Source of the DNA: a virus | Direction: 5' to 3' (one strand) | Virus record (IMG/VR): IMGVR_UViG_3300043470_001769 | Span: 1 to 39,641 of that record | DNA: 39,641 bases | Part shown: positions 7,356-23,425 of the stretch, one piece after another | Position numbering within the stretch: the stretch's first letter is position 1 | How the letters are laid out: each line of letters opens with the position of its first letter | Made by a program: the position numbers and the translations under genes | Notes under the pieces: model-generated | Told to the model about the DNA's origin: nothing | Database searches by the model: none | What the model saw: only the letters and a program-made list of their open reading frames with translations

Positions 7356-8090
7356 ATGACAACTGTAGTAATCATGCCCGGCGGGTTTCATCCTTTTCAT
7401 GCAGGGCATGCAGCTTTGTATCAGTCAGCTCGGCGCACATTTCCTGACGCAGATGTATATGTGGCTGCTACCAATGACACATCAACAAGACCTTTTCCAT
7501 TTCAAATAAAAGAAAAACTGGCTCAATTGGCCGGAGTTGACCCAGGTCGATTCATGCAGGTCAAAAGCCCTTTTCAAGCCGCAGAAATCACAGCACCTTA
7601 CGATCCTGCCCGTGATCAATTGATATTTGTAAGATCAGAAAAAGACGCAAACAAACCACCACAGGCCGGTGGCGTCAAAAAGAACGGCGACCCGTCATAT
7701 CTGCAGCCGTTGTTGGGTGCAAAAAAACTAGAACCATTTGCAAAGCATGCTTACATGGCCTATTTGCCCACAGTGGAGTTTGGCCCTGGCATGACTTCAG
7801 CCACAGAAATACGTGCTGCTTGGCCCAAACTAAACGAAAAACGCCGGACTGCCTTGGTCATGAGTTTGTATCCAAAAACACAAACCAATCCTCAATTGGC
7901 CGCAACAGTGGTCAAAATGTTGAACACTGCCATTGGTACAGAAGTTGCAGAAAATCAAGGTTGGGCTGCTACCTATGAGTCAGACGGACTCACTGCTGGC
8001 ACCGGAGTAACAGGTGGCATGCATGCCTCATATCAAGATCGATACAATCAACCCACCACAGAAGACTATGTGGAAGAATACCGGTCGTAA
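7356..8090 (+). CDS. Cytidylyltransferase-like nucleotidyltransferase
   Basis: The N-terminus carries the nucleotidylyltransferase superfamily HxGH signature in GGFHPFHAGH (about residues 9-18). It also has a later ATEIRA motif (about 149-154), the counterpart of the ISSTxxR motif, so an intact active site is likely. These enzymes transfer NMP from an NTP to phosphosubstrates such as phosphocholine, NMN or phosphopantetheine; the substrate here cannot be told. The last 45 residues are Gly/Thr/Tyr-rich and follow EVAENQGW (about 199-206). This contains a VAE tripeptide like the putative cleavage junctions in 12605-17371, hinting that this enzyme may also be packaged in the head. It is preceded by a late-type promoter. 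Confidence 0.8.
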   Translation: MTTVVIMPGGFHPFHAGHAALYQSARRTFPDADVYVAATNDTSTRPFPFQIKEKLAQLAGVDPGRFMQVKSPFQAAEITAPYDPARDQLIFVRSEKDANKPPQAGGVKKNGDPSYLQPLLGAKKLEPFAKHAYMAYLPTVEFGPGMTSATEIRAAWPKLNEKRRTALVMSLYPKTQTNPQLAATVVKMLNTAIGTEVAENQGWAATYESDGLTAGTGVTGGMHASYQDRYNQPTTEDYVEEYRS

Positions 8091-9092: not shown

Positions 9093-9100
9093 GGTAAATA
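9093..9100 (+). promoter_or_regulatory. T4-type late promoter octamer (GGTAAATA)
   Basis: The octamer is followed by CAGCTT and ATG at 9107 (gap 6 nt). No Shine-Dalgarno sequence is present, and the spacing is identical to the 7342 site. Confidence 0.55.
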
Positions 9101-9106
9101 CAGCTT

Positions 9107-12100
9107 ATGAACATTCATGAGCTGGCTACTTACAATCTTGATGATGCTGTAAAGTTTCATCAACGACTCAATCCTGTACTTTGGGCAAGAGACGAACATC
9201 TCTTGCCTGAAGTGCGCAACAAGTTGTTAAAAATAGCAGCAGACTTCCAAGAATTCCTGGGAGTAGAGGATCTCAAAGTAAAAGACATCACTGTGTCTGG
9301 ATCCAATGCTGCCTATTCTTACACCAAACAATCTGACATAGATCTACACCTGGTGGTTGAAATGCCTGACGATCCGGTGTATCAAGAGCTGTTTGCTGCC
9401 AAAAAATATCAATACAACACCGAACATGACATCACCATAGGTGGTGCCGACGTTGAACTGTATGTGCAGCCTGAAGATCAGCCACATCACAGTCAAGGCA
9501 TCTATTCGATCAAAAACTCAGACTGGGTCAAGGTACCACAGCGCAAACGCAGTCAGATAGATGACACCTGTGTGTTGGCCAAGGTAGATGATCTCACAAA
9601 CAGAATTCAATCTGCAGTGGCCAGTGAGAACAAAGAATCCATGGACACGCTGTGGAACAAGATCAAAATCATGCGTCAGTCTGGCCTGGAAAATCACGGC
9701 GAGTTTGGCTGTGAAAATGTTGCATTCAAACTGTTGCGCAACAATGGCAGCATTGGTGCATTGAAATCGGCCATCACAGCAGCACAAGACCGCGAACTCA
9801 GTTTGCCACCCAAGAAACGTGTGCGTTACGGATTTTCAGAAGATGTCACTTCTACACCTGACGGAGTCAGTGCCAGCACCAACATGTTCTTGAATGAAAC
9901 ACCCATTGACGGTGTTGTACAGGCCTTTATCAAAGATGCAGTGCAACAACTGAACATTGAACACATGCCCGAAGTGGTGTTGCACAATGATGCCAGTTGG
10001 AGCAAACAAAACAACAGCTTTGGTCAATACAATCCTGGCACACGAACTTTGCATGTGAGCCTGGCCAATCGACATCTACTAGACATATTGCGAACAGTGG
10101 CACATGAACTCACTCACTGTCGTCAAAACGAATTGAGTGAATTGCCAGATGATGCTGGAGAAACTGGCAGTCCTTGGGAAAACGAAGCCAATGCACAAGC
10201 AGGCATACTCATGCGTGACTTTGCAGATGCTAATCCTGAGTATTTTACAGAGTCATACACTCAAGCAAAAAGTTTGCAGTCATCCATGAAGACCTTTCGT
10301 GCTCTGGTACGTATCAAAGATCGATACGGTAGCCCGGCCATTGAAGCACAGGTAGTGGCCAGAAATCATGACATGGCCAGACAACTGTTGAGAGCTCAGT
10401 ACGGTCCTGACAGTGTGGTTAGCACAGTGACTGAGCTTAAAGAAAATGCTTCGGGCTATATTCCCAAGAACAAACGAGAAGCAGCCATGCCACAGTATGC
10501 CATGGCTCTTTCAGTGGATATCAAGCCAGGTCAAGTGGGCAAGGAAGCCAACAAACTGGGATTGAAAACTGGGCGCAATGGCGAACCAGGACTGTTGATG
10601 CCCGAGGCCCAAAACTTGTTGCGTGAGTTTGCTGAGTTCACTGAAGAACAAGACAACTTGTTTGAAATCACAATGAGTCCCTCTAGCCTGCGGAAACTCA
10701 GCGCACAAACTGGTGCCTTGGCTGGCATGGAATTTGAAATGATTGTGCCCAACATCGAAGGCAGCGACGATGGCGATCAAGAACCCGATTATGAATATGA
10801 CCAACGCTGTCGCAGCATTGAAGATGCTTTTGACTTCTTCTATGACGGTGATTGGAATGGTCGTAGAGATGTAGAACGCATGCGTGATAGAATGCAGAAT
10901 GATTATCAGGAATGGCTGGATGACAAACTGTATCGAGACTGGGAACGCAACGGCGAAGAATACCTAGAAGAATGGGTGCCCAACAACGTGGACGAATCAG
11001 AATGGAATCCCGAAGGCCTGGAAGGCGATGAACGCCAAGAAGCCTTGGAAGAATTCATTGCCAACTTGCATAGCGACCCCGGCGGCAATGATGCTTTTGA
11101 TGAGTACCGAGAAGAAAATTTTGAAAGTTATGACGAAAGCGACTGGCTGAGTGACGAAGATCTAGACCTCATGAGTGCCATTGAAAACAACTACAGCATG
11201 AGTTGGCCACATTGGACCAGTGTAGGCAGTGGCGAAGGCAGCATTGAAGAAGTTGCTGATAATTTTTCAGACGCTATTGACCGCCCAGTGCAGGCCAGCA
11301 GCAGTTATCACAGCGGGTCAGTTCAACGACCCAGCGTCAAGAATCCGCACTACATTGTGGAACCTGATTCTAGTTTGGATCCTGATAACAGTGATGACCG
11401 AGGTTTAGAGTTTGTGAGTCCTCCTTTGCCTATTGAAGAACTGCTGAGTGATTTGAACAAGGTCAAAGCCTGGGCTGATCGTACTGGCTGCTATACTAAT
11501 AATTCTACTGGCCTGCACATCAATGTAAGTGTGCCTGGCTGGACCGGTGGCACTGATCAATTGGACTATGTGAAACTGGCCTTGTTGCTGGGCGATGAGT
11601 TTGTGCTGGATTCATTTGGTCGTGCTGGCAACACCTACGCCAAGTCGGCTATGGGCAAAATACGTGACGCAGTGAGAAAAAGTCCTGATCGAGCACAAGA
11701 ACTCATGGACCGAATGAAGTCTGGTATGGATCAACTGGCCAGCAAGGTTGTACACAGTCGTAGTACAGACAAGTACACATCAATCAATGTGAAAGATGGC
11801 TACATTGAATTCCGTAGCCCAGGTGGCGATTGGTTGAATGACAACTTTGCGGAGATTGACAACACCCTGCGCAGATTTACTGTGGCCCTTAGTGCAGCCG
11901 TGGATCCCGAGGCGTATCGCCAAGAGTACTTGAAGAAACTGTACAAACTATTGGACGTATCCAGTGAAAAAGATCCCTTATCATACTTTGCAAAATTTGC
12001 TGCTGGCGAGTTGCCCAAGGCAGCACTAAAGAGTTTTGTGCGTCAAGCACAGTTGGAACGTGATGTCAAACGTGGCAAAGAACAACCAGCACCGGTGCCA

Positions 12101-12598
12101 TCTGCTCAAGAACCACAAGGTGTTGATACCCGTGTGAACTACGAACTCTACAGTAGAGCATCAGGTGCGGTGATTGACACATTCCCGGCTCGCAACGACG
12201 ATGAAGCAATAACTAGATTGAGTGACTACATAAACTTTGGTGCTGGACAAAGCAATCCTGACAATTTTGATGTTCGCCGTGCTGGTCGTGCTCCTATTGC
12301 AGGTTCTACACTAGACCTACAACGTCAGCGAGCAGCCTCTAGTGCAGCCGCTGCTCAAATTCCCACCATTGACATTGACGTTGAACCAGCGCCAGTACCA
12401 CAGCCAGCAGGCATGGGACAATGGAATGGACAATGGAAAGTGTTGGTTGGCGGCCAAGAAGTGTATCGCTTTGGTGGCGTTGGCAACAGCCAAGCAGATG
12501 CCAACAGAATAGCCGCAGCATGGTTACGAAGCAGTGGTCGGGGTGTATCAGGTGAAGGCTTTGAAGTATATCCTGTGATGGATGAAAGCCTACGTTAA
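9107..12598 (+). CDS. Giant fusion: nucleotidyltransferase, zinc metallopeptidase and amidoligase-like domains
   Basis: Of 1163 residues, about 1-230 form a Pol-beta-like nucleotidyltransferase (GSNAAYSYTKQSDIDLHL, acidic pair D77/D79). About 265-370 form a zincin peptidase with HELTH at 333-337 and a likely third ligand in WENEAN (E358 or E360). About 535-930 match the putative amidoligase (glutamine-synthetase-like ATP-grasp cousin) pattern: GMEFEM at 540-545, GLEFVSPPLP from 766, STGLHINVS at 800-808, EFRSPGGDW from 901. A very acidic insertion lies at about 550-720 and a small C-terminal domain at 1040-1163. No membrane segment. It precedes the small basic packaged-type protein and is under a late octamer, so I infer a virion-internal multi-enzyme protein, perhaps cleaved into parts. 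Confidence 0.85.
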   Translation: MNIHELATYNLDDAVKFHQRLNPVLWARDEHLLPEVRNKLLKIAADFQEFLGVEDLKVKDITVSGSNAAYSYTKQSDIDLHLVVEMPDDPVYQELFAAKKYQYNTEHDITIGGADVELYVQPEDQPHHSQGIYSIKNSDWVKVPQRKRSQIDDTCVLAKVDDLTNRIQSAVASENKESMDTLWNKIKIMRQSGLENHGEFGCENVAFKLLRNNGSIGALKSAITAAQDRELSLPPKKRVRYGFSEDVTSTPDGVSASTNMFLNETPIDGVVQAFIKDAVQQLNIEHMPEVVLHNDASWSKQNNSFGQYNPGTRTLHVSLANRHLLDILRTVAHELTHCRQNELSELPDDAGETGSPWENEANAQAGILMRDFADANPEYFTESYTQAKSLQSSMKTFRALVRIKDRYGSPAIEAQVVARNHDMARQLLRAQYGPDSVVSTVTELKENASGYIPKNKREAAMPQYAMALSVDIKPGQVGKEANKLGLKTGRNGEPGLLMPEAQNLLREFAEFTEEQDNLFEITMSPSSLRKLSAQTGALAGMEFEMIVPNIEGSDDGDQEPDYEYDQRCRSIEDAFDFFYDGDWNGRRDVERMRDRMQNDYQEWLDDKLYRDWERNGEEYLEEWVPNNVDESEWNPEGLEGDERQEALEEFIANLHSDPGGNDAFDEYREENFESYDESDWLSDEDLDLMSAIENNYSMSWPHWTSVGSGEGSIEEVADNFSDAIDRPVQASSSYHSGSVQRPSVKNPHYIVEPDSSLDPDNSDDRGLEFVSPPLPIEELLSDLNKVKAWADRTGCYTNNSTGLHINVSVPGWTGGTDQLDYVKLALLLGDEFVLDSFGRAGNTYAKSAMGKIRDAVRKSPDRAQELMDRMKSGMDQLASKVVHSRSTDKYTSINVKDGYIEFRSPGGDWLNDNFAEIDNTLRRFTVALSAAVDPEAYRQEYLKKLYKLLDVSSEKDPLSYFAKFAAGELPKAALKSFVRQAQLERDVKRGKEQPAPVPSAQEPQGVDTRVNYELYSRASGAVIDTFPARNDDEAITRLSDYINFGAGQSNPDNFDVRRAGRAPIAGSTLDLQRQRAASSAAAAQIPTIDIDVEPAPVPQPAGMGQWNGQWKVLVGGQEVYRFGGVGNSQADANRIAAAWLRSSGRGVSGEGFEVYPVMDESLR

Positions 12599-12604
12599 TA
12601 CCGG

Positions 12605-12814
12605 ATGCCACAGCCCAGTCAAGGTGTGGCGGAAAACTTTGCTGATGGTAAAAATCCTGGACGCAAAGGCCTCAGCAAGCAAGTGGGCGTCAACACCAAA
12701 GCCAGTGTGAGCAGTCTGCGCAAGACAGCAAAGAATTCATCAGGTGAAAAGCAACGCATGGCACACTGGCTGGCCAACATGAAAGCCGGTAGAGCAAAGG
12801 CCAAACGCAAATGA
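12605..12814 (+). CDS. Small very basic protein, probably head-internal and DNA-associated
   Basis: The 69 residues are dominated by Lys, Arg, Ser and Ala (ASVSSLRKTAKNSSGEKQRMAHWLANMKAGRAKAKRK). That is typical of a DNA-binding packaged protein. The N-terminal ten residues contain SQGVAEN, whose GVAE element is the same at nucleotide level as the junctions in the 13814 gene. Cleavage after VAE would release a mature protein beginning NFADGKNPGRKG. It lies between two cassette genes, 6 nt after one and overlapping the next by 4 nt. The family recurs in aquatic T4-like phages to my knowledge, but without a proven function. Confidence 0.75.
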   Translation: MPQPSQGVAENFADGKNPGRKGLSKQVGVNTKASVSSLRKTAKNSSGEKQRMAHWLANMKAGRAKAKRK

Positions 12815-13473
12815 GTTTTTTAGTAGCAAATTTACCACCCATACACTGTTTTGTTCGTAGAGAATTTTTATATGATTTTGAACAAGGTCACGACGAATAT
12901 GAGCCCTGTATATGGGTGTCAATCAAAAGTCTACGCAGTCAAGCATTTCGTATAGAAGCCTACTTGCCACGATATGGCGCACTGTATGACAAACTACCAC
13001 TGCATGCTTATGTCAGCAGAAATACTGATCTAGAGCCTGACAAATTTCTAGCCTTGGATACACTACAGATCTGGGACTGTTTCAGCTATGATATTGCTGT
13101 GATACAAAAAGCATTCCTACGCAATCTCAGCTGTGAGTTCTATGCCAAGGATCGTCAGCTACACAAGGGCAACTACTTGTTCACAGTGGACAATGCCGCA
13201 CCAGACATGAACATCATAGACACCACCTATTCAGAATGGCCAGAAGATCACAAGAGCTTTAACTTTATTGAACTGGACAACGGACAGTATGCCGCACAGC
13301 CCAACAATCGCTGCTTGTTTTTTGATGCTGCCAGCAATCCCAAAGAGATGCTGTTCCCAGATTTCAAAGTCTGCACCAAAAAATACATGGTGGAAACCAA
13401 TCCCAAATGGCGACTGGGTGATTCGGACACTGTGATGTATGATCTAGATAATGCAATAAATAAACAATCATGA
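12811..13473 (+). CDS. Conserved-type phage protein of unknown function
   Basis: This 220-residue protein is mixed alpha/beta with many aromatic residues (FVRREFLYDFEQGHDEYEPCIWVSIK at the start in overlapping parts, then LQIWDCFSYDIAVIQ). A C-terminal section, CLFFDAASNPKEMLFPDF, precedes a lysine-rich stretch. It has several cysteines but no zinc-finger spacing, no membrane span and no catalytic motif I recognise. Proteins of this appearance are frequent in T4-like cyanophage and related genomes. The ATG overlaps the stop of the preceding basic-protein gene by 4 nt (ATGA), so the two are translationally coupled. No capsid-targeting-like leader is seen, unlike its neighbours, so it may be a scaffold or assembly partner. 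Confidence 0.75.
   Translation: MSFLVANLPPIHCFVRREFLYDFEQGHDEYEPCIWVSIKSLRSQAFRIEAYLPRYGALYDKLPLHAYVSRNTDLEPDKFLALDTLQIWDCFSYDIAVIQKAFLRNLSCEFYAKDRQLHKGNYLFTVDNAAPDMNIIDTTYSEWPEDHKSFNFIELDNGQYAAQPNNRCLFFDAASNPKEMLFPDFKVCTKKYMVETNPKWRLGDSDTVMYDLDNAINKQS
13455..13462 (+). promoter_or_regulatory. T4-type late promoter octamer (AATAAATA)
   Basis: The octamer matches seven of eight positions of TATAAATA and ends 7 nt before the ATG at 13470. It lies within the 3' end of the upstream gene. No good ribosome-binding site precedes 13470. Confidence 0.5.
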
Positions 13474-13817
13474 CGTACAAAGAAATTCTTGAAGCCTGCT
13501 GGGACGGTTATCGCCGCAAACCCGGTACTACGGAGTATTCCAAAGGCAGCTGTGAAAAGATCAGCGAGCAGGATATAGAAGAAAATCTTCGAGACTGGTT
13601 CAAACAAAAATGGGTTCGTTTTGGTCCCGACGGAAAAATCCGTGGAGACTGTGCTAGAGGCAGTAGTAAAGAAGGCAAGCCCAAGTGTTTGCCTCAGGCC
13701 AAGGCACATGCACTGGGCCGAAAAGGTCGTGCGTCAGCAGCCGCAAGAAAACGCAGACAAGATCCCAACCCCAACCGTACAGGAAAGGCCATCAACGTGG
13801 CCACTAAAAAGAAATGA
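13470..13817 (+). CDS. DUF5872-like basic protein with capsid-targeting-like leader
   Basis: The 115-residue product carries the DUF5872-type segment KWVRFGPDGKIRGDCARGSS..GKPKCLPQAKA (about residues 48-80). A strongly basic tail follows (RKGRASAAARKRRQDPNPNR). It looks like a small nucleic-acid-binding protein with conserved cysteines. The first nine residues, MTYKEILEA, closely resemble T4 internal-protein leaders that end in (I/L)-x-E before an alanine, so cleavage after Glu8 is plausible. It overlaps both neighbours by 4 nt, forming one tightly coupled cassette. I infer a head-packaged protein; the DUF's molecular function is unknown to me. Confidence 0.8.
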   Translation: MTYKEILEACWDGYRRKPGTTEYSKGSCEKISEQDIEENLRDWFKQKWVRFGPDGKIRGDCARGSSKEGKPKCLPQAKAHALGRKGRASAAARKRRQDPNPNRTGKAINVATKKK

Positions 13818-16800
13818 TCATAGATGAACTATTTGAAGCCCCACAACTGTGCCCTGAATGCGGTGGCATCAGTTTCAGCGATTTAATCTTGGCTGAAAAA
13901 AAAGACGCCTGCTACCACAAGGTCAAAGCGTCAGCCAAGGTATGGCCGTCAGCGTATGCATCAGGACGCTTGGTACAGTGCCGCAAAAAAGGTGCTGCCA
14001 ACTATGGCAACAAGTCGGAAGGTGTGGCGGAAGGCCCTGAGTCTAAAAAATTCAAAGTAACATATGAATTACAAAACGGTGATGTCAAAGAAAAGATAAT
14101 GATTGGCAAAGATGCCAACGCTGTTGCAAAGTATTTTGAATTTAAGTATCGTCACAAACCAATCAGTGTTGTAGAGCAAGGTGTGGCGGAAGGCCAAGAA
14201 AATTTCAATGGTATAGATATCTCTATGGAGATACAAAAAGATGATGAGTATGTGGATGATGAAGATTATGATAATCAAGTAATATATGTCACTGCTAGTA
14301 GCAAAGGTAAAGAACTGGGTCATGTGTTGTTTGCCTTTGACGGTGAATATTTAATGCCACAAGATTTAGAAGTAGAAGAACGCTATCGAGGGCAAGGTAT
14401 CGCTCAAACCATGTACGACTATGTAAAGAGTAAGGGATATAAAATTCGCCGTAGCGGTCAACAAACTGATGCTGGTACTGGATTTTGGGACAAACACAAA
14501 CCAGGAAAAAATGTCTGGGAGCAAGGTGTGGCGGAAGGCTTGTGGGACCAACACACTTCTATCCCTGAGTTAGAGCAAGCCATCAAGAACTTAATCATGG
14601 GATACAAGGGCGGGGTGAACTTAACTGACAAAGGTCGTGCTCAACTGTTACTGAGTATTAACAAGGGCAAGCGTATCTTGGCCAAGAAAAAACAACAGCA
14701 AGACATGGCAGAAGGTCGTATGGTCAAAGGGCCAGGCGGTGTGCCACTGGACCGTCAGGGTCGTCCTATCGTTGCCAAAGCAAAACCACTAGGAATGCGC
14801 AAGTGGCTTGTGATTCATGACGGATCGCATGGCGAAGGTGGCAAAGACATTATTGAAGCACCCAACGCTGAAACAGCCTGGGAATTGGCCAACGAGTATG
14901 ATTTATACATCATCGATATCAAGCCCTACCGAGGACCAGCCGGACCCACGCTGGTGGACGAAAGTGTCTTGGATGAAGCAGTTGGCATGATGATCAAAGG
15001 TGCCGCGATCAGTGGACCCGATGATCAAGACATTGCAGATCGAATTGCTGCCCGAACAGGTGGGCGTGTGCAAGGTGGGTCTCGTGGCCACCATATCCTA
15101 ATAATCTATCCAACCACACAAGATCGTGCCATTGCTGCTAAAAAGATTAGAAAAATGTTCCCTGGCATTGAACTATACAAGTCCGGGGGCAACAGGAACG
15201 CAATCGACGAAGGCATGAAGGCCGACGAACTTTCACAATACTGTGAAGAACTTGTGGCTGAAAAAGGTTGGGATCAAGCATACAAACATGCCAGATTCAT
15301 GGCACAGGGCAGCACAGATCCTTCTTGGGGCAGTGTGCTAAAATATCTCAAATCCATGAAAGATGGTGTGGCGGAAGAAGAATCTGAAGCAGCATCACAG
15401 CGCAAGCAATACCCAAATTATTATCAACATAGAGACTCAGGTACAGTTTTTAGAACTCAAAATGCTGACGGTCAAAGAATGGATATAACTCCCGATGACG
15501 AAGAATGGGATGACTATTACAAACAACAGTTTAAAGATATGCCTACCCCCAATGATGGCGGTTTTTGGAATGATGACAATACAGCAGCCTACGTAGAAGG
15601 CTCAGCAGAACAAGGCGTGGCGGAAGTCAGCCTGGGCGACTATCGTAAAAAGGCACAAGTGAGTCAAGCCGGTGCCAAGATAAACCGATTCTTTGACCGT
15701 GACAATCCTGAAAAAGTTGCCCGAGCCGATCAGACCATTGCCAAAAGAGAACGAGGCCTGGCACGTGCAGATGCTAGAAGCCGACCCTACACCGCACCAC
15801 CTGTGGACAAAGAAAAACAGCGGCAGCAGCTGACAGACAAATATCCCAACATTGACCAACTGGTATCCGATGCTGAAAAGAATCGTGATCCATACTATGA
15901 CCGTGCCGAAGGCAATGCATACTACGCAGGTCGTGAGGCTGAACAAAACTATGTGAGACTCAAACAAATACAACGCATAATTCAAGGACTCAATGAAGAG
16001 ACCAGACAGGCCACAGTGAATACTCCAGCTGGCAATTTCACAGCAAACATCACAAAAGACAAAAGCACAAACACTGTGTCGGGTACGATGCCGGTGGGCG
16101 GAGCAACTTTGAGTGCCAAAAAAGACCTGACACCAGGCGGAGCTCAGTCAGTCACTGTAGACACCGACGTTGCCCCAAATTTGAATTTATCAGCCACACG
16201 AAAGTCTGCTGATTATAACAAAGGACAATTGGCCGGAACCAAGTCGGTGTCAGCCAAGTACACTGATACCACAGGTGCATTGGGCGAGCCTGGACAACAG
16301 CACACTGCAACTAGAACTGCGGGTGTTGGGTTTGGTGGTGCATCAGGCTCTAGAGTAGGAAAAAATTACGTGACTCAAATTGACAAAACTTTAGCTGATT
16401 ACATGAAAGAAGCCAAAGGTATTAATAGTATAAGAAATCCCAATGATCTACAACCATTGGAAGGCGGTGGTGGCATGGGTGGTGGCGGTGGCTACACAGG
16501 TGGTCCCTCACCATTTAAAGGTTGGTTTGGTGGTGCAAAACCTGGATCACGTGAAGCATCCGTTGCTCAAAACAATCCCAACACCATGACGGTGAGACAA
16601 GGTCCAAACCCTGACTATCGTCCCCAGACCACAGGTGATAAACCCAAAGTAAATGTCAAACCCGGCGAGACCATGGATCAGGCTGTACAACGAACAAAAA
16701 CTCAACAAGAATTTGGCAAATTCCTACAAGGGCAAAGTGGTCAAACATTTGGTGCTGGTGGTGGACGTGGTGGTCAAGGTGGGCCAACAGCCGCACAAGC

Positions 16801-17371
16801 AAATACCATGTCCAATGCGCCAGTCAGTGTGAAAAACAAACCATCTGCTATAAATTCCATGGCCAGAGACTTGACCAATCCACCCAAGTCAACCAACACT
16901 ACCACTACCACTACAAACAATTCGCCCAGACAAAACGACCGTGTTGATCCACTTGACATGCCGCGAGATCCATACATGCCGCGAGATCCATTGGATATGA
17001 TACGTCCGGGCTATGACGGTCAGCTGGGCTCAAACCCAGGACCAAACACAGCAGACAAGAAGTCGTCGTGGCTTGGCAAAACAGCCAAAGGATTGGGATA
17101 TGCAGCAGGTGCTTATGGTGCTGCTGACTTGGGTTCACGTGCCCTGGACTACTATGATCAAACAAAAGACCAAAGCCAAGACGAAGTCATTATACCAGAT
17201 ATCAAAGAAACCAAAAAACGTGAGCAGCCCGAAGTGGAGTACGATGATGACTACGATGCTATGGTTGCCAGAGTTAAACGACTAGCCGGACTGGGTCCTA
17301 TGAAGACTGTTTACGATCCCAAGAAGCGACAATATCGCAACATGCCCACAGCAGTGCAGCCTAAAAAATGA
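13814..17371 (+). CDS. Giant modular protein with repeated GVAEG junctions; candidate capsid-cargo polyprotein
   Basis: The leader MIIDELFEAP has an LFE ending like a T4 capsid-targeting sequence. Junction tripeptides end at about E73, E126, E241 (all GVAEG), E300 (MAEG), E521 (GVAEEE) and E604 (GVAEV). Pieces: 1-73 a basic Cys-containing domain (ACYHKVKASAKVWPSAYASG); 74-126 a small alpha/beta domain; 127-241 GNAT acetyltransferase-like (EVEERYRGQGIAQTMYDYV); 242-300 helical; 301-521 mixed, with further LDE and IDE sites near 390 and 465; 522-604 acidic, Tyr/Trp-rich; 605-1185 a long Gly/Asn/Thr-rich disordered arm ending in a basic VKRLAGLGPMKTVYDPKKR-type motif. Known: T4-like prohead proteases cut after (L/I)-x-E. 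Inferred: this is a polyprotein of injected cargo. Confidence 0.85.
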   Translation: MIIDELFEAPQLCPECGGISFSDLILAEKKDACYHKVKASAKVWPSAYASGRLVQCRKKGAANYGNKSEGVAEGPESKKFKVTYELQNGDVKEKIMIGKDANAVAKYFEFKYRHKPISVVEQGVAEGQENFNGIDISMEIQKDDEYVDDEDYDNQVIYVTASSKGKELGHVLFAFDGEYLMPQDLEVEERYRGQGIAQTMYDYVKSKGYKIRRSGQQTDAGTGFWDKHKPGKNVWEQGVAEGLWDQHTSIPELEQAIKNLIMGYKGGVNLTDKGRAQLLLSINKGKRILAKKKQQQDMAEGRMVKGPGGVPLDRQGRPIVAKAKPLGMRKWLVIHDGSHGEGGKDIIEAPNAETAWELANEYDLYIIDIKPYRGPAGPTLVDESVLDEAVGMMIKGAAISGPDDQDIADRIAARTGGRVQGGSRGHHILIIYPTTQDRAIAAKKIRKMFPGIELYKSGGNRNAIDEGMKADELSQYCEELVAEKGWDQAYKHARFMAQGSTDPSWGSVLKYLKSMKDGVAEEESEAASQRKQYPNYYQHRDSGTVFRTQNADGQRMDITPDDEEWDDYYKQQFKDMPTPNDGGFWNDDNTAAYVEGSAEQGVAEVSLGDYRKKAQVSQAGAKINRFFDRDNPEKVARADQTIAKRERGLARADARSRPYTAPPVDKEKQRQQLTDKYPNIDQLVSDAEKNRDPYYDRAEGNAYYAGREAEQNYVRLKQIQRIIQGLNEETRQATVNTPAGNFTANITKDKSTNTVSGTMPVGGATLSAKKDLTPGGAQSVTVDTDVAPNLNLSATRKSADYNKGQLAGTKSVSAKYTDTTGALGEPGQQHTATRTAGVGFGGASGSRVGKNYVTQIDKTLADYMKEAKGINSIRNPNDLQPLEGGGGMGGGGGYTGGPSPFKGWFGGAKPGSREASVAQNNPNTMTVRQGPNPDYRPQTTGDKPKVNVKPGETMDQAVQRTKTQQEFGKFLQGQSGQTFGAGGGRGGQGGPTAAQANTMSNAPVSVKNKPSAINSMARDLTNPPKSTNTTTTTTNNSPRQNDRVDPLDMPRDPYMPRDPLDMIRPGYDGQLGSNPGPNTADKKSSWLGKTAKGLGYAAGAYGAADLGSRALDYYDQTKDQSQDEVIIPDIKETKKREQPEVEYDDDYDAMVARVKRLAGLGPMKTVYDPKKRQYRNMPTAVQPKK
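16957..16991 (+). repeat. Tandem repeat of two 17-bp units
   Basis: CATGCCGCGAGATCCAT occurs at 16957-16973 and again at 16975-16991, an 18-nt period in frame. It encodes two MPRDP units in the disordered arm of the modular protein, a likely recent slippage duplication. Confidence 0.8.
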
Positions 17372-19717: not shown

Positions 19718-20520
19718 AATTAATGATAGCAGGTTGCAGTTTTTCAGCTGTCAGCAAGTCATTGCCTGGCACCGCCTGGAGTGAAGTGTTGGCCAAGCGA
19801 CTAGGCTGGGAGTTGATCAATCTAGCACGTCAGGGCTGTAGCAATGGTGGCATACGCATACAGATAGATGAGATACGTAGACAGCGTCCAGACTTTGCTG
19901 TGCTCACTCCCACATTCTGGGACCGAATGGAAATACCTGCCAACAGTGTACCCTACGATTGGAATCAAAAACCCAGTTCAGGAGAGAATCCTCCACTGGA
20001 ACAGCATTTGCAAAATCGTGCCCTGGGCAATGGCTACCGTAGAGAAGATGGCATACGCAATGTCAACTACGGCACAGAACCGTCGAACATGATTTGCGAA
20101 ACTATCTTTACCTTGGCTGAAAACTTTGATCATCCCTACAGACAGGGACGCATCACTAAACAAGCACAAACAGGTGTGCGCCATTGGATTGATTCAATCT
20201 ACGACAATGCTTGGAAAAAACAGTGTGACGAGTGGATCATGCGGGATGGCATCACAATGATGTATTTAGATGGTATCAAATTCATTGTGTGTCCCAACCT
20301 GTTGTGGCCATTTGATCCTGCAAATTCTTCACAGTGGCGTGAGGCATTTCCTAGCATTGTGCCTGATCATTACATCAACTTGGATCCTGCACGATCGCCG
20401 CAGGCCATATGCGGCAACAATCCGTTTTCAGGAGAAGATCCTGGTTATCATTCAAGTCCAGCAGGACAAGAAATAATCGCCGAACACTTTTATCAAACTT
20501 GGTTGGATCACTTCAAGTGA
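19714..20520 (+). CDS. SGNH/GDSL-type hydrolase-like protein
   Basis: The 268-residue protein shows the SGNH block order. GCSFS (residues 6-10) carries the candidate serine nucleophile, NLARQGCSNGGIRIQI (about 34-49) the oxyanion Gly/Asn block, FAVLTPTFWDR (about 62-72) the third block, and GYHSSPAGQEIIAEHF near the C-terminus the His block. Such proteins act as esterases or O-acetyl hydrolases or transferases on sugars. Paired with a PIG-L deacetylase, sugar O-acetyl editing is a reasonable inference. Its 3' end overlaps the 3' end of the converging gene by 13 nt. Confidence 0.75.
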   Translation: MKLMIAGCSFSAVSKSLPGTAWSEVLAKRLGWELINLARQGCSNGGIRIQIDEIRRQRPDFAVLTPTFWDRMEIPANSVPYDWNQKPSSGENPPLEQHLQNRALGNGYRREDGIRNVNYGTEPSNMICETIFTLAENFDHPYRQGRITKQAQTGVRHWIDSIYDNAWKKQCDEWIMRDGITMMYLDGIKFIVCPNLLWPFDPANSSQWREAFPSIVPDHYINLDPARSPQAICGNNPFSGEDPGYHSSPAGQEIIAEHFYQTWLDHFK

Positions 20521-21569
20521 TCTACGACAAACTGCTGTAGTTCTTGTGTTTTTTCTTGTTCAAATTCATACAGCCTATTGTGATTGTGATCCAATTTAGG
20601 TCGTAGTTTTTGCAACAGTGCAGGCAAGTCTTGACTGCATAGATACTGCATTTGTTCAAACGCCCGACTCCAACGAACTACATCATCCGGCTCGGCATCA
20701 TAACTTTCGTCTATGACATCGCTAAAGGTTTCAAATCCCCAGTCCCGGTATTGTTGCAAAAATCCTTGTATGGCAAACACCACAAACAATCTACGAGCTT
20801 GAAAACACTTGGCAGTTTTTTCAGCAGAAAGAAACACACGATCCTTTCCTAGTGTTTCACACACCACACTGAACCAAGTGCGATTGTATATTTCCCAGGG
20901 CACCAAACCGCTGACAGAATTGTCCATGTCTTTTTTAACTTCCCATGCAGAGTCCAAGTTTGGACTCACATAAGGATATTGTAATGCAGTATTATCAAAC
21001 AGCCTGGCCACACGTTCAGGAGTTGAATCGATCCAATGCCCCACAAACAAGTCTCTGTAGGTCACAATTCCCTGTTCCAGCAAGCCTAATTTTTGCATGC
21101 TCAACATTGCAAAATCTCTATGCTCACGACGAGCACCTAGCAGGCATTCAAATGCAAAAGGACGTTGTGCAGGGAAATCTTCTCTTGGTTGATTCCAACG
21201 TAGGAAGTTGAAACTCCAGGCTGGTCTGTAGATCACTCTTGGGTGGGGCGGTTCGTCCAGCCACACACCTGCTGTGTGCAACAGCCAGTTTTCTATGCCT
21301 GTGGTTTCAATCCATTCCACAAGTTCTTTTTTGCTGTGCCACTCAATGTCAGTGAACAACACAAGATCAAATTCATGCAGCGGCAACTTCATGAAGTCTG
21401 GGTTGTATTCGTGTTTGTTGGGCAGACTGTAGAACACTGGCAAGACTGCTATGCTATGCGGCTGTGCCAAGGCTGTGGCCAAGTCTACTATTTGATCATA
21501 GCCAAAGCCCCATTCTGTGGCTTGATAGCCTGGAGAGAATACTTTAAGAGAGGCGTGCAAGAGTTTCAC
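20508..21569 (-). CDS. Putative glycosyltransferase (fucosyltransferase-like C-terminal motif)
   Basis: The GTG start at 21569 gives 353 residues and overlaps the upstream minus-strand gene by 26 nt. The C-terminal half holds WFSVVCETLGKDRVFLSAEKTAKCF followed by GFLQQYRDWGFETFSDVIDESYD (described in parts). That is the E-T-x(n)-EK and GF-x-TF-x(n)-DESYD pattern of phage and GT10-like transferases that bind nucleotide sugars. The N-terminal half (LVLFTDIEWHSKKEL) would bind the acceptor. It is the last gene of a three-gene reverse operon with a radical SAM enzyme and another transferase. Product and acceptor are unknown. Confidence 0.7.
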   Translation of the reverse strand: MKLLHASLKVFSPGYQATEWGFGYDQIVDLATALAQPHSIAVLPVFYSLPNKHEYNPDFMKLPLHEFDLVLFTDIEWHSKKELVEWIETTGIENWLLHTAGVWLDEPPHPRVIYRPAWSFNFLRWNQPREDFPAQRPFAFECLLGARREHRDFAMLSMQKLGLLEQGIVTYRDLFVGHWIDSTPERVARLFDNTALQYPYVSPNLDSAWEVKKDMDNSVSGLVPWEIYNRTWFSVVCETLGKDRVFLSAEKTAKCFQARRLFVVFAIQGFLQQYRDWGFETFSDVIDESYDAEPDDVVRWSRAFEQMQYLCSQDLPALLQKLRPKLDHNHNRLYEFEQEKTQELQQFVVDHLK

Positions 21570-22428
21570 GTATCTTGTCCATGTAGTAGTTGAAGTTCAC
21601 AACTTCTTTCTTTTCCCAGTCCATTTGCAAACTGCGACTCAAGTCAGGCACAGCATCACACACAGCAGTGTGATAGTTGGGATCAAAGTCACCAATCTTT
21701 TCCATGTCGTCATAATGATATCTGCGTTGGAACTCCTGGGTAATGGGTCTTCGGCTCATGGTCCAATTGCCAATGAATTCATATTCTGAAAACCAGCGTA
21801 TGAGTTCACCATTGCCCCAGGGTGGCACAGTGGGTTCAGGCGGGCATGAGTCAATCATGGCATCCAGCCATTTCTTCTGATGTTTTTCTTCCAGGAACTT
21901 TACTAAATCGTTAAAGTCTTGTTTGAGTACAGGCACGTTTTCACTGATAAAGCAGTGTGGCGTGAGTCGGTCAAAGCCCAGTCCATTCTTGATACTTTCA
22001 TAATAACCCCAACTGTGGCGTTCATTCTCCAGCACTTGGAAATTCAACACGCCGTCCTTGATAGGTTTATAGGGTCGGATCAGCAAACAATCACAGTCGT
22101 GCATGATCATCAAGTCATAGTTGAGATAATCAAGAAACGCAAACTTGATGGCCTGCTGACGCAGCCAGTATGTTCTGTAGTCACCGTCAAACACCCAATT
22201 GTTGACTTCAGGATAGATTCTGTAGATCTCTGAATCAGGAGCATAGTCTAACTTGGCGGTATCAATGCCGTACTTTTCAAACACAGGCCACAGTTCTTCC
22301 TGCGGCACAGGGCTGGCAATACAAGTGCGGTCTATGCCAATGAGATTGTTGGCAAATTCAGGTTGCAGGCTCATGATGGCATGCGGCACACGATATCGTG
22401 CTAGGTATAAAATTCTTGCTGAGGTCAT
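21544..22428 (-). CDS. GT-A-like glycosyltransferase (DUF6492-like)
   Basis: I chose ATG at 22428 (MTSARILYLARYR) because AAGGAAAAT stands directly before it and it then follows the radical SAM stop by 7 nt. A longer version starting at 22521 would overlap that gene by 86 nt. The 294 residues contain WLRQQAIKFAFLDYLNYDLMIMHDCDCLL, where the conserved Gln-Gln-Lys helix precedes a DCDC acidic site (about residues 108-111), and SEYEFIGNW further on. This is the same architecture as the 18366 product but with the metal site intact. It belongs to the reverse-strand sugar operon. Confidence 0.72.
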   Translation of the reverse strand: MTSARILYLARYRVPHAIMSLQPEFANNLIGIDRTCIASPVPQEELWPVFEKYGIDTAKLDYAPDSEIYRIYPEVNNWVFDGDYRTYWLRQQAIKFAFLDYLNYDLMIMHDCDCLLIRPYKPIKDGVLNFQVLENERHSWGYYESIKNGLGFDRLTPHCFISENVPVLKQDFNDLVKFLEEKHQKKWLDAMIDSCPPEPTVPPWGNGELIRWFSEYEFIGNWTMSRRPITQEFQRRYHYDDMEKIGDFDPNYHTAVCDAVPDLSRSLQMDWEKKEVVNFNYYMDKIRETLARLS

Positions 22429-22435
22429 ATTTTCC

Positions 22436-23425
22436 TTAGGTGATTGAGCAACTGTTGACACATTGATACAGTCTGCCATCTGCAATACTGCTTTGAGCCC
22501 AGGTTTGTTCCACACGTTCAAACCAGTTTAGACAATGCGCCAAATCATATTTAAGTGCGTTGTTTTCCTCGACCAATTCTTTTGTTTGACTGTTGCCAGC
22601 GTGAGTCATGGTTTTGGGGTAGAATCCCAGGTAACAACAGGGATATACTGAACCATCTGCGGCTATGTATATTTCTTGTTTGATCTTGTGCTGACAACGT
22701 AATTTTAACTCTGGCGTATCCTTGTGACTTTGCACAGTGCGCGGATCAAACCATGTGATGTGACTTTGTAATAAATCTTTGATGTGCGGCACATGATTGC
22801 TGGAGTCTGTGCCAATCCTATGGCTGTATTCTCCTGACCTAGTGAACACTGGTCCAGAGTCTCGGCCATCGTAGATGTTTTCAAATTCCACAAATCCCAG
22901 ATCTTGGGCCAGTTGTCGGCATTCGGCTTCTTGATGTCGGTTGTGATCAAACGGTACAAAACGCCACTTGGCCCGTCCGCCCGCAGCGATAAAAGCCTGT
23001 GCATTGGCTATGACTTTGTTCCAGTCTGTGTCCTGTCTATACAGAGCATGAGTATCTGCCAGACCGTCCAGCGCAAACCCCACAGTGACTCGGGGCAACG
23101 CCAGGCGCCGCCACCAATCTTGGTTGCGCAAACTGCCGTTGGTGTTGATGTTTACTGTGATATCGTGTTCCGCAAGATATTCAACTATTTCCACAGCATC
23201 TCGAGCACTTGCAAAGTCTCCCAGGTTGCCGTTGAAGTTGGCATGTGTTAGCTGTGATATCACAGGTGCCAAAATGTGCCGAAACTGTGCGAGATTCAGT
23301 TCCACATCAGGATAACCCGAATTGTAATCCAAGCCGCGATAGTTGCGCATACACATGGGACAACGGGCATTGCACCGGGTAGTGAGTTCCACATGCACCT
23401 GGCGTATTTGGTCTAACTTTAGCAT
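22436..23425 (-). CDS. Radical SAM/SPASM enzyme
   Basis: [18 protein letters not shown] (about residues 10-27) contains the canonical CxxxCxxC that binds a 4Fe-4S cluster and S-adenosylmethionine. A TIM-barrel-like core follows, including [11 protein letters not shown] and INTNGSLR. The C-terminal SPASM-like region has cysteines in [28 protein letters not shown] and YQCVNSC, fit for auxiliary clusters. At 329 residues it is the usual length. SPASM enzymes modify peptides or sugars by radical chemistry; next to two glycosyltransferases it may make an unusual sugar or modify a protein. A perfect TATAAATA sits 4 nt before its ATG. It is not QueE, which has a different cysteine spacing. Confidence 0.88.

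Follow-up and report, generated by a model that had tools for sequence, protein, structure and literature searches.

In phage T4, L/I-X-E is the motif after which the prohead protease gp21 cleaves, and head targeting is encoded in the first ten residues of a protein (PMC9026906). The internal proteins IPI-III and Alt are diverse, share a short N-terminal leader that gp21 cuts at such a site, and are ejected (PMC9026906, PMC3012670); IPII and IPIII begin MKTYQEFIAE/A, where the slash marks the cut. A second described group, the polyvalent proteins, joins several unrelated enzyme domains, among them a zincin metallopeptidase and a Pol-beta nucleotidyltransferase, and packaging, injection and processing into pieces have been proposed for it (PMC5512222). 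Here we analyse a gene at positions 9107-12598 of the 39,641-nt virus record IMGVR_UViG_3300043470_001769 from IMG/VR (the window, taken at full length). The phage is T4-like, and its DNA polymerase matches PHROG 262. The gene encodes a Pol-beta nucleotidyltransferase (NT), a zincin metallopeptidase (ZN) and an amidoligase (AL) in one polypeptide, see Table 1. We consider it probable that this protein is made late, packaged in the head, cut into separate enzymes and ejected into the host.

Table 1. Features of the focal gene and of the cassette genes downstream of it; positions are those of the window.
Feature	Position	Strand	Details
Late promoter element, degenerate T4-type TAAATA	9095..9100	+	12 nt 5' of ATG
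Focal gene	9107..12598	+	1,163 aa, 130 kDa; NT, metallopeptidase, small module, amidoligase, two C-terminal modules
Pol-beta nucleotidyltransferase domain (NT)	9134..9805	+	residues 10-233; GS and SDID motifs at 65-79; E117
MFLNE at the NT/ZN junction	9884..9898	+	residues 260-264; L/V/I in 57/68 at 262, E in 52/68 at 264
Zincin metallopeptidase domain (ZN)	9905..10246	+	residues 267-380; HELTH 333-337, E358
Small module	10289..10432	+	residues 395-442; in the window and L001 fusions
Candidate prohead-protease site L518-F-E520	10658..10666	+	ZN/AL junction, directly before the first AL helix
Amidoligase domain (AL), glutamine-synthetase fold	10673..11929	+	residues 523-941
Acidic, mostly helical insert within AL	10769..11341	+	residues 555-745; 55 D/E vs 15 K/R
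C-terminal module 1	12137..12250	+	residues 1011-1048; beta-beta-alpha-beta
C-terminal module 2	12419..12580	+	residues 1105-1158; same kind as module 1
Next gene, internal-protein cassette neighbour	12605..12814	+	69 aa, basic; QGVAE/N near N-terminus
Cassette gene	13470..13817	+	leader MTYKEILE/A; L024 relative MRYKEILE/A
Cassette gene, modular polyprotein	13814..17371	+	1,185 aa; leader MIIDELFE/A; five GVAE between modules; GNAT-like part between two GVAE

The initial annotation had read this open reading frame as one late gene with three chemistries, and the frame is present as described. All the quoted motifs are found in the claimed order: GSNAAYSYTKQSDIDLHL at residue 65, HELTH at 333, GMEFE at 540, GLEFVSPPLP at 766, STGLHINVS at 800 and EFRSPGGDW at 901. 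They are not there by chance, because Pfam Amidoligase_2 matches above its cut-off, phrog_36119 matches the NT and the active-site residues are invariant. In IMG/VR the whole protein has at least 126 relatives, NT and ZN at least 580 each; 53 relatives were aligned, 31 of which contain the NT and ZN domains, and two AlphaFold2 models were made. The presumed catalytic residues are kept in every aligned relative that has the domain (NT 31/31, ZN 31/31, AL 53/53). Against L001, the nearest relative, dN/dS is 0.08-0.25 in every domain, a range at which purifying selection acts on all of them. By sequence, none of NT, ZN and AL has a close solved relative at E < 0.05. A cellular origin was considered and rejected: among 84,980 species genomes, an AL relative occurs in only two short contigs of metagenome-assembled genomes, probably misbinned phage.

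The NT domain matches phrog_36119 with an E-value of 6e-46, and Pfam NTP_transf_2 falls just below its cut-off. It has the GS motif, D77-x-D79, a third carboxylate and the Pol-beta fold that define the Pol-beta nucleotidyltransferases. G65, S66, S76, D77, D79 and E117 are invariant, and from the alignment the third carboxylate is E117 and not the variable D115. The modelled fold is near the AAD(9)/AadA aminoglycoside adenylyltransferases and minimal nucleotidyltransferases (AAD(9) E 7e-4; Z about 6-7). The ZN domain, modelled with a pLDDT of about 94, shows HExxH and a downstream Glu ligand in a zincin fold, as gluzincins do, with H333, E334, H337 and E358 invariant. It matches the Wss1/SPRTN/minigluzincin/IrrE group of zincins with Z from 8.9 (Wss1) to 7.4, IrrE and jannalysin being at 7.5-7.7.

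For the AL domain, Pfam Amidoligase_2 (PF12224) gives E 6e-8 and 33.3 bits against a cut-off of 22, and the model aligns with glutamine synthetases (GS) over 192 residues (Z 11.5, rmsd 3.9). The family's ExE, H and R motifs are present, and twelve residues (E542, E544, E752, D754, E768, H804, N806, K889, N894, E901, R903, D908) are invariant. The acidic insertion that was said to split the ligase motifs is real, spans residues 555-745 and is conserved in 53/53 relatives, where it is 189-240 residues long and always net acidic. According to the models it is folded and mostly helical (pLDDT mostly 82-95), not a loose linker. A weak profile match to the anti-CRISPR AcrIIC5 within it (window 10853-11110, residues 583-668, E 0.05) was rejected as a sign of relationship and most likely reflects acidic composition. 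Of the smaller parts, the 395-442 module occurs elsewhere as separate small genes of the same cassette, and the beta-beta-alpha-beta module, with two copies here, has 1-5 in the relatives.

The three enzymes also occur apart. Among dereplicated architectures, some of them cut by contig ends, we counted NT-ZN-AL 69 times, NT-ZN 30, AL 28, NT 12, ZN 5 and ZN-AL 3, and the domain order in the fusions, which belong to large T4-like phages, is invariably NT-ZN-AL. The parts were also found as separate neighbouring genes in related phages: in the unfused relatives L058 and L068 the three genes can sit within about 15 kb on one strand. NT and ZN are both present in 10 of 11 long records, usually in one copy each. 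Synonymous divergence from L001 is unequal (dS 0.38 for NT, 1.28 for AL), which points to module exchange, and the AL tree needs about four changes of the fusion-state label, one of them dependent on L039, whose row is truncated at a contig end. Both results speak against the fusion as one event. Judging from the tree and the divergence, fusion or fission probably took place more than once, or modules were exchanged.

Part of the evidence for packaging comes from the relatives that are not fused. Separate ZN genes start MRFNQILSE/S, MRYTDIILE/S or MKSTEFLIE/S (the last in L178), separate AL genes MKYKEIFE/Q, MRALDFILE/N or MKYREILE/Q, and separate copies of the 395-442 module MRAHEFLLKE or MRAKEFLRE. 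A leader like that of the T4 internal proteins, which has 10-19 N-terminal residues and ends in L/I-X-E, is found on separate ZN and AL relatives and is missing from the focal protein. The gene adjoins an internal-protein cassette, as the initial annotation had proposed, and many unrelated genes downstream share the leader: in an alignment of 34 of them, hardly anything is shared beyond a starting consensus of MRAxEFxxE. Of 345 N-terminal M[RK], 140 begin such a leader, compared with 11 of 840 at internal positions. When the pattern is relaxed slightly, the highest density (71/180) falls in the 2.5 kb downstream of the focal gene, and far upstream the leader is rare (1/104). Pfam families among the leader genes include GNAT, NUDIX, LysM and lysozyme. 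By their shared starts, these genes form an apparent arsenal of packaged proteins. As for the protease, gp23 is present in 11 of the 21 records of relatives, the very ones that have an S77 (gp21-type) protease, and the relatives' major capsid proteins have LKE/NASAG or IME/SASAG at the expected end of the propeptide.

Virion data exist for a homologue of the NT. ORF156 of Synechococcus phage S-CREM2 is 36% identical to it over 226 residues and was found in purified virions by mass spectrometry (6 unique peptides, 15.2% coverage), together with ORF154 and ORF155, its neighbours in the cassette (PMC10665884 Table 3). The initial annotation had listed two refuting findings, relatives without the catalytic residues and absence from particles; the residues are kept in all aligned relatives, and an NT relative is among the proteins detected in virions. 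ORF156 starts MKKLISE and ORF154 MKNFSSFLTE/A, and ORF14 has MKRFDAFLTE. A T4-like leader is present on 6/13 non-structural virion proteins of S-CREM2 against 1/134 undetected ORFs (p 9e-7); this pattern was fixed after two of the positives had been seen, and without these the counts are 4/11 against 1/134 (p 9e-5). In their annotation the S-CREM2 authors list the NT as a hypothetical protein, and they cite a putative protein kinase of S-CRM01 as virion-borne (PMC10665884). A kinase-annotated gene of the S-CRM01 cassette starts MISFDQFLSE/K. No amidoligase match was found in the S-CREM2 and S-CRM01 records. In phage Atu_ph07, which has 131 virion proteins, the AL relative (AUZ94978.1) has the portal gene as its neighbour, in a stretch with many virion proteins; PMC6102473 gives CDS 170-215 as a cluster rich in such proteins, and the AL relative would be gp196 if the gene numbering follows the accessions.

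In the fused protein, one position stands out as a candidate site for the prohead protease. At L518-x-E520 the first residue is L or I in 52/53 and the last is E in 53/53 relatives, the middle residue being variable, and this is the sole conserved [LI]xE in the alignment, which counts in favour of packaging as well. The predicted site lies in a low-confidence linker (pLDDT < 50), as an exposed gp21 L/I-X-E site would, and the distant Atu_ph07 ligase has KLTE/LKM (MRWQDISSKKLTE/LKM) at this position. A cut at 520 would give pieces calculated at 58 and 72 kDa. The moderately conserved MFLNE is a possible leftover site of the same type. Cleavage of the focal protein at GVAE was rejected, since it contains no GVAE and in the relatives this motif is confined to the C-terminal extensions of some.

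Several points weigh against packaging and cutting. The focal N-terminus, MNIHELATYNLDD, contains no L/I-X-E, nor do those of the other fused relatives, so the protein has no cleavable capsid-targeting leader. The S-CREM2 authors caution that abundant cell proteins may co-purify with virions (PMC10665884). P1' at 520 is I or V, while the other sites have A, G, S or N there, and E520 may be a residue of the fold instead of a cut site. Within the AL, the full-length model has low confidence over residues 810-900. In T4, Asp for Glu at position 10 stops cutting and not targeting (PMC9026906), and on this analogy one could speculate that MNIxELD is an uncut targeting signal. The initial annotation had suggested packaging. 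The protein is probably packaged, given the leaders of the stand-alone relatives and the NT relative in virions, but because that leader is missing from the fused form, we infer its packaging from the relatives.

Late expression agrees with this. The proposed late promoter is present as a conserved element, but in degenerate form: the window has only TAAATA upstream of the gene and no perfect TATAAATA. TAAATA lies 10-16 nt 5' of the start codon in most relatives and within 40 nt in 51/56, compared with 1.6% of random 40-mers and 265/1,191 of all genes, as would be expected of a T4-type late promoter. The transcript would be nearly leaderless, because the element sits so near the ATG. No clear Shine-Dalgarno sequence was seen between the two, either in the window (9095-9106) or in the relatives.

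According to the mechanism that we favour, the late multi-enzyme polyprotein would enter the prohead core of this large T4-like phage, and the S77 (gp21-type) prohead protease would cleave it at L518-F-E520 and perhaps at further sites, yielding an NT and peptidase piece of about 58 kDa and an amidoligase piece of about 72 kDa. Both would leave the head together with the DNA and act on the host just after infection, as effectors that resemble the polyvalent proteins and T4 Alt. Nucleotidyl transfer, peptide-bond cleavage and amide-bond formation are predicted from the families: the NT would transfer a nucleotide, probably AMP, onto a host protein or small molecule, the AL would join a carboxylate and an amine in an ATP-dependent amide bond, and the ZN would cleave a host protein or help in processing. 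Packaging of the fused protein, the cut at 518-520, ejection and all the activities are what we infer. A more specific version, in which the prohead protease splits the packaged polyprotein and host proteins receive an amino acid or peptide, linked covalently by the AL within minutes of the start of infection, with the NT nucleotidylating alongside, is rather improbable.

The same enzymes could act without packaging, as a late cytoplasmic modifier: the ligase and NT would modify cell-wall precursors or host or phage proteins in the producing cell, for instance to prevent superinfection or to complete the proteins of the virion. A fused protein without a cleavable leader, the single-gene amidoligases of many phages, and the glycosyltransferase-like and cytidylyltransferase-like genes just upstream all suit such a role. 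We regard it as unlikely, given the capsid-targeting-like leaders on separate ZN and AL relatives, the NT relative in virions and a downstream cassette rich in leader-bearing proteins. It is considerably less likely that a structural or scaffold role in head or core assembly outweighs the enzymes, with the peptidase as an additional protease for maturation. A part in phage maturation has been suggested for zincins (PMC7824862), and the place of the Atu_ph07 AL relative beside the portal gene would fit. All three active sites are retained, however, the modules are optional in the relatives (AL, NT or ZN alone; NT-ZN without AL), and a gp21-type protease is already there.

Pup ligase belongs to the same superfamily of GS-type carboxylate-amine ligases as the AL is assigned to by its fold and intact motifs. 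The initial annotation's analogy to tagging systems, with the AL modifying carboxylates of its targets by an amino acid or peptide, which the ZN removes unless it processes the tag, is nevertheless the least likely reading and is not supported, since AL and ZN are often encoded apart, there is no evidence of a substrate, and no tag-like small protein or partner gene is evident in the neighbourhood, where no dedicated search for one was made. It is more probable that the substrates of the ZN are host targets or the polyprotein than that it partners a tagging ligase.

Further features of the cassette and the surrounding genes are as follows. Downstream of the focal gene in L001-L080 there are dozens of unrelated leader-bearing (MRAxEFIxE) genes, which also include kinase-like proteins, a HIGH nucleotidyltransferase and DUFs. 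In the relatives' genes the cassette contains 82 GVAE and 68 VAEG, while most other permutations of these letters occur 1-16 times, and from this enrichment QGVAE/[GANSD] looks like a second site of prohead-protease type in these phages. A protein of 70-72 aa that starts MRMKEIMENASVGGTS (L027:23598-23813 and similar loci) is encoded 11 times among the leader-bearing genes close to the cassette. Its start resembles the end of the gp23 propeptide (LKENASAGST), and it is possibly a core or head protein. The cytidylyltransferase-like gene upstream (window 7356-8090) starts MTTVVIMPGG, without a leader; its leader-bearing counterparts in S-CREM2 and S-CRM01 are neighbours of the NT gene, and the one of S-CREM2 was detected in virions. 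Elsewhere in S-CREM2, gp12-gp15 (L272:7704-13331, minus strand) are annotated as a Cas9-like nuclease, an APH-like kinase and two small proteins, all virion-detected, and at least two have T4-like leaders. Three minus-strand genes interrupt a plus-strand region of the window (20508-23425): a radical SAM protein (22436-23425) and two ORFs of 325 and 353 aa with no PHROG match.

A packaged amidoligase effector, if real, would add a chemistry to phage-head delivery. To our knowledge it would be the first head-packaged amidoligase, and we know of no amidoligase chemistry delivered by a phage head. In these large freshwater T4-like phages dozens of unrelated proteins carry the leader, with the highest density near the focal gene; this would be an arsenal far above that of T4. 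It may therefore serve as a sequence rule listing the injected proteins of uncultured phages.

Compared with known systems, the closest match to phage Amidoligase_2 proteins is in the motif set, the GS-like fold and a score above the curated cut-off; the focal AL differs by its large, conserved, acidic helical insert and by being fused to or beside NT and ZN. Among the entries of the structure library, phage proteins with an amidoligase annotation are for the most part shorter, and no function is stated for them. The cluster C cyanophages S-CREM2 and S-CRM01 share the NT homologue and the cassette neighbours, the T4-like leaders and the virion detection, while their genes are separate and no amidoligase matches. 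Like polyvalent proteins, which have at least two disparate activities in one polypeptide, the focal protein combines NT, ZN and AL. However, the word "amidoligase" is absent from the main text of that paper, and the nucleotidyltransferases described there are minimal and belong mainly to firmicute mobile elements with ArdC-N (PMC5512222), whereas the focal NT combines the Pol-beta fold with a long C-terminal helical bundle. Processing by the prohead protease is also likelier here, with T4-type leaders on the separate genes. The cassette leaders closely match T4 MKTYQEFIAE; the focal protein itself differs from the T4 internal proteins in having no leader with a cut site, in being far larger and multi-enzyme, and in that its candidate cut is internal. 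It would thus link two ideas so far separate, the few leader-bearing internal proteins of T4 and the multi-enzyme polyvalent proteins.

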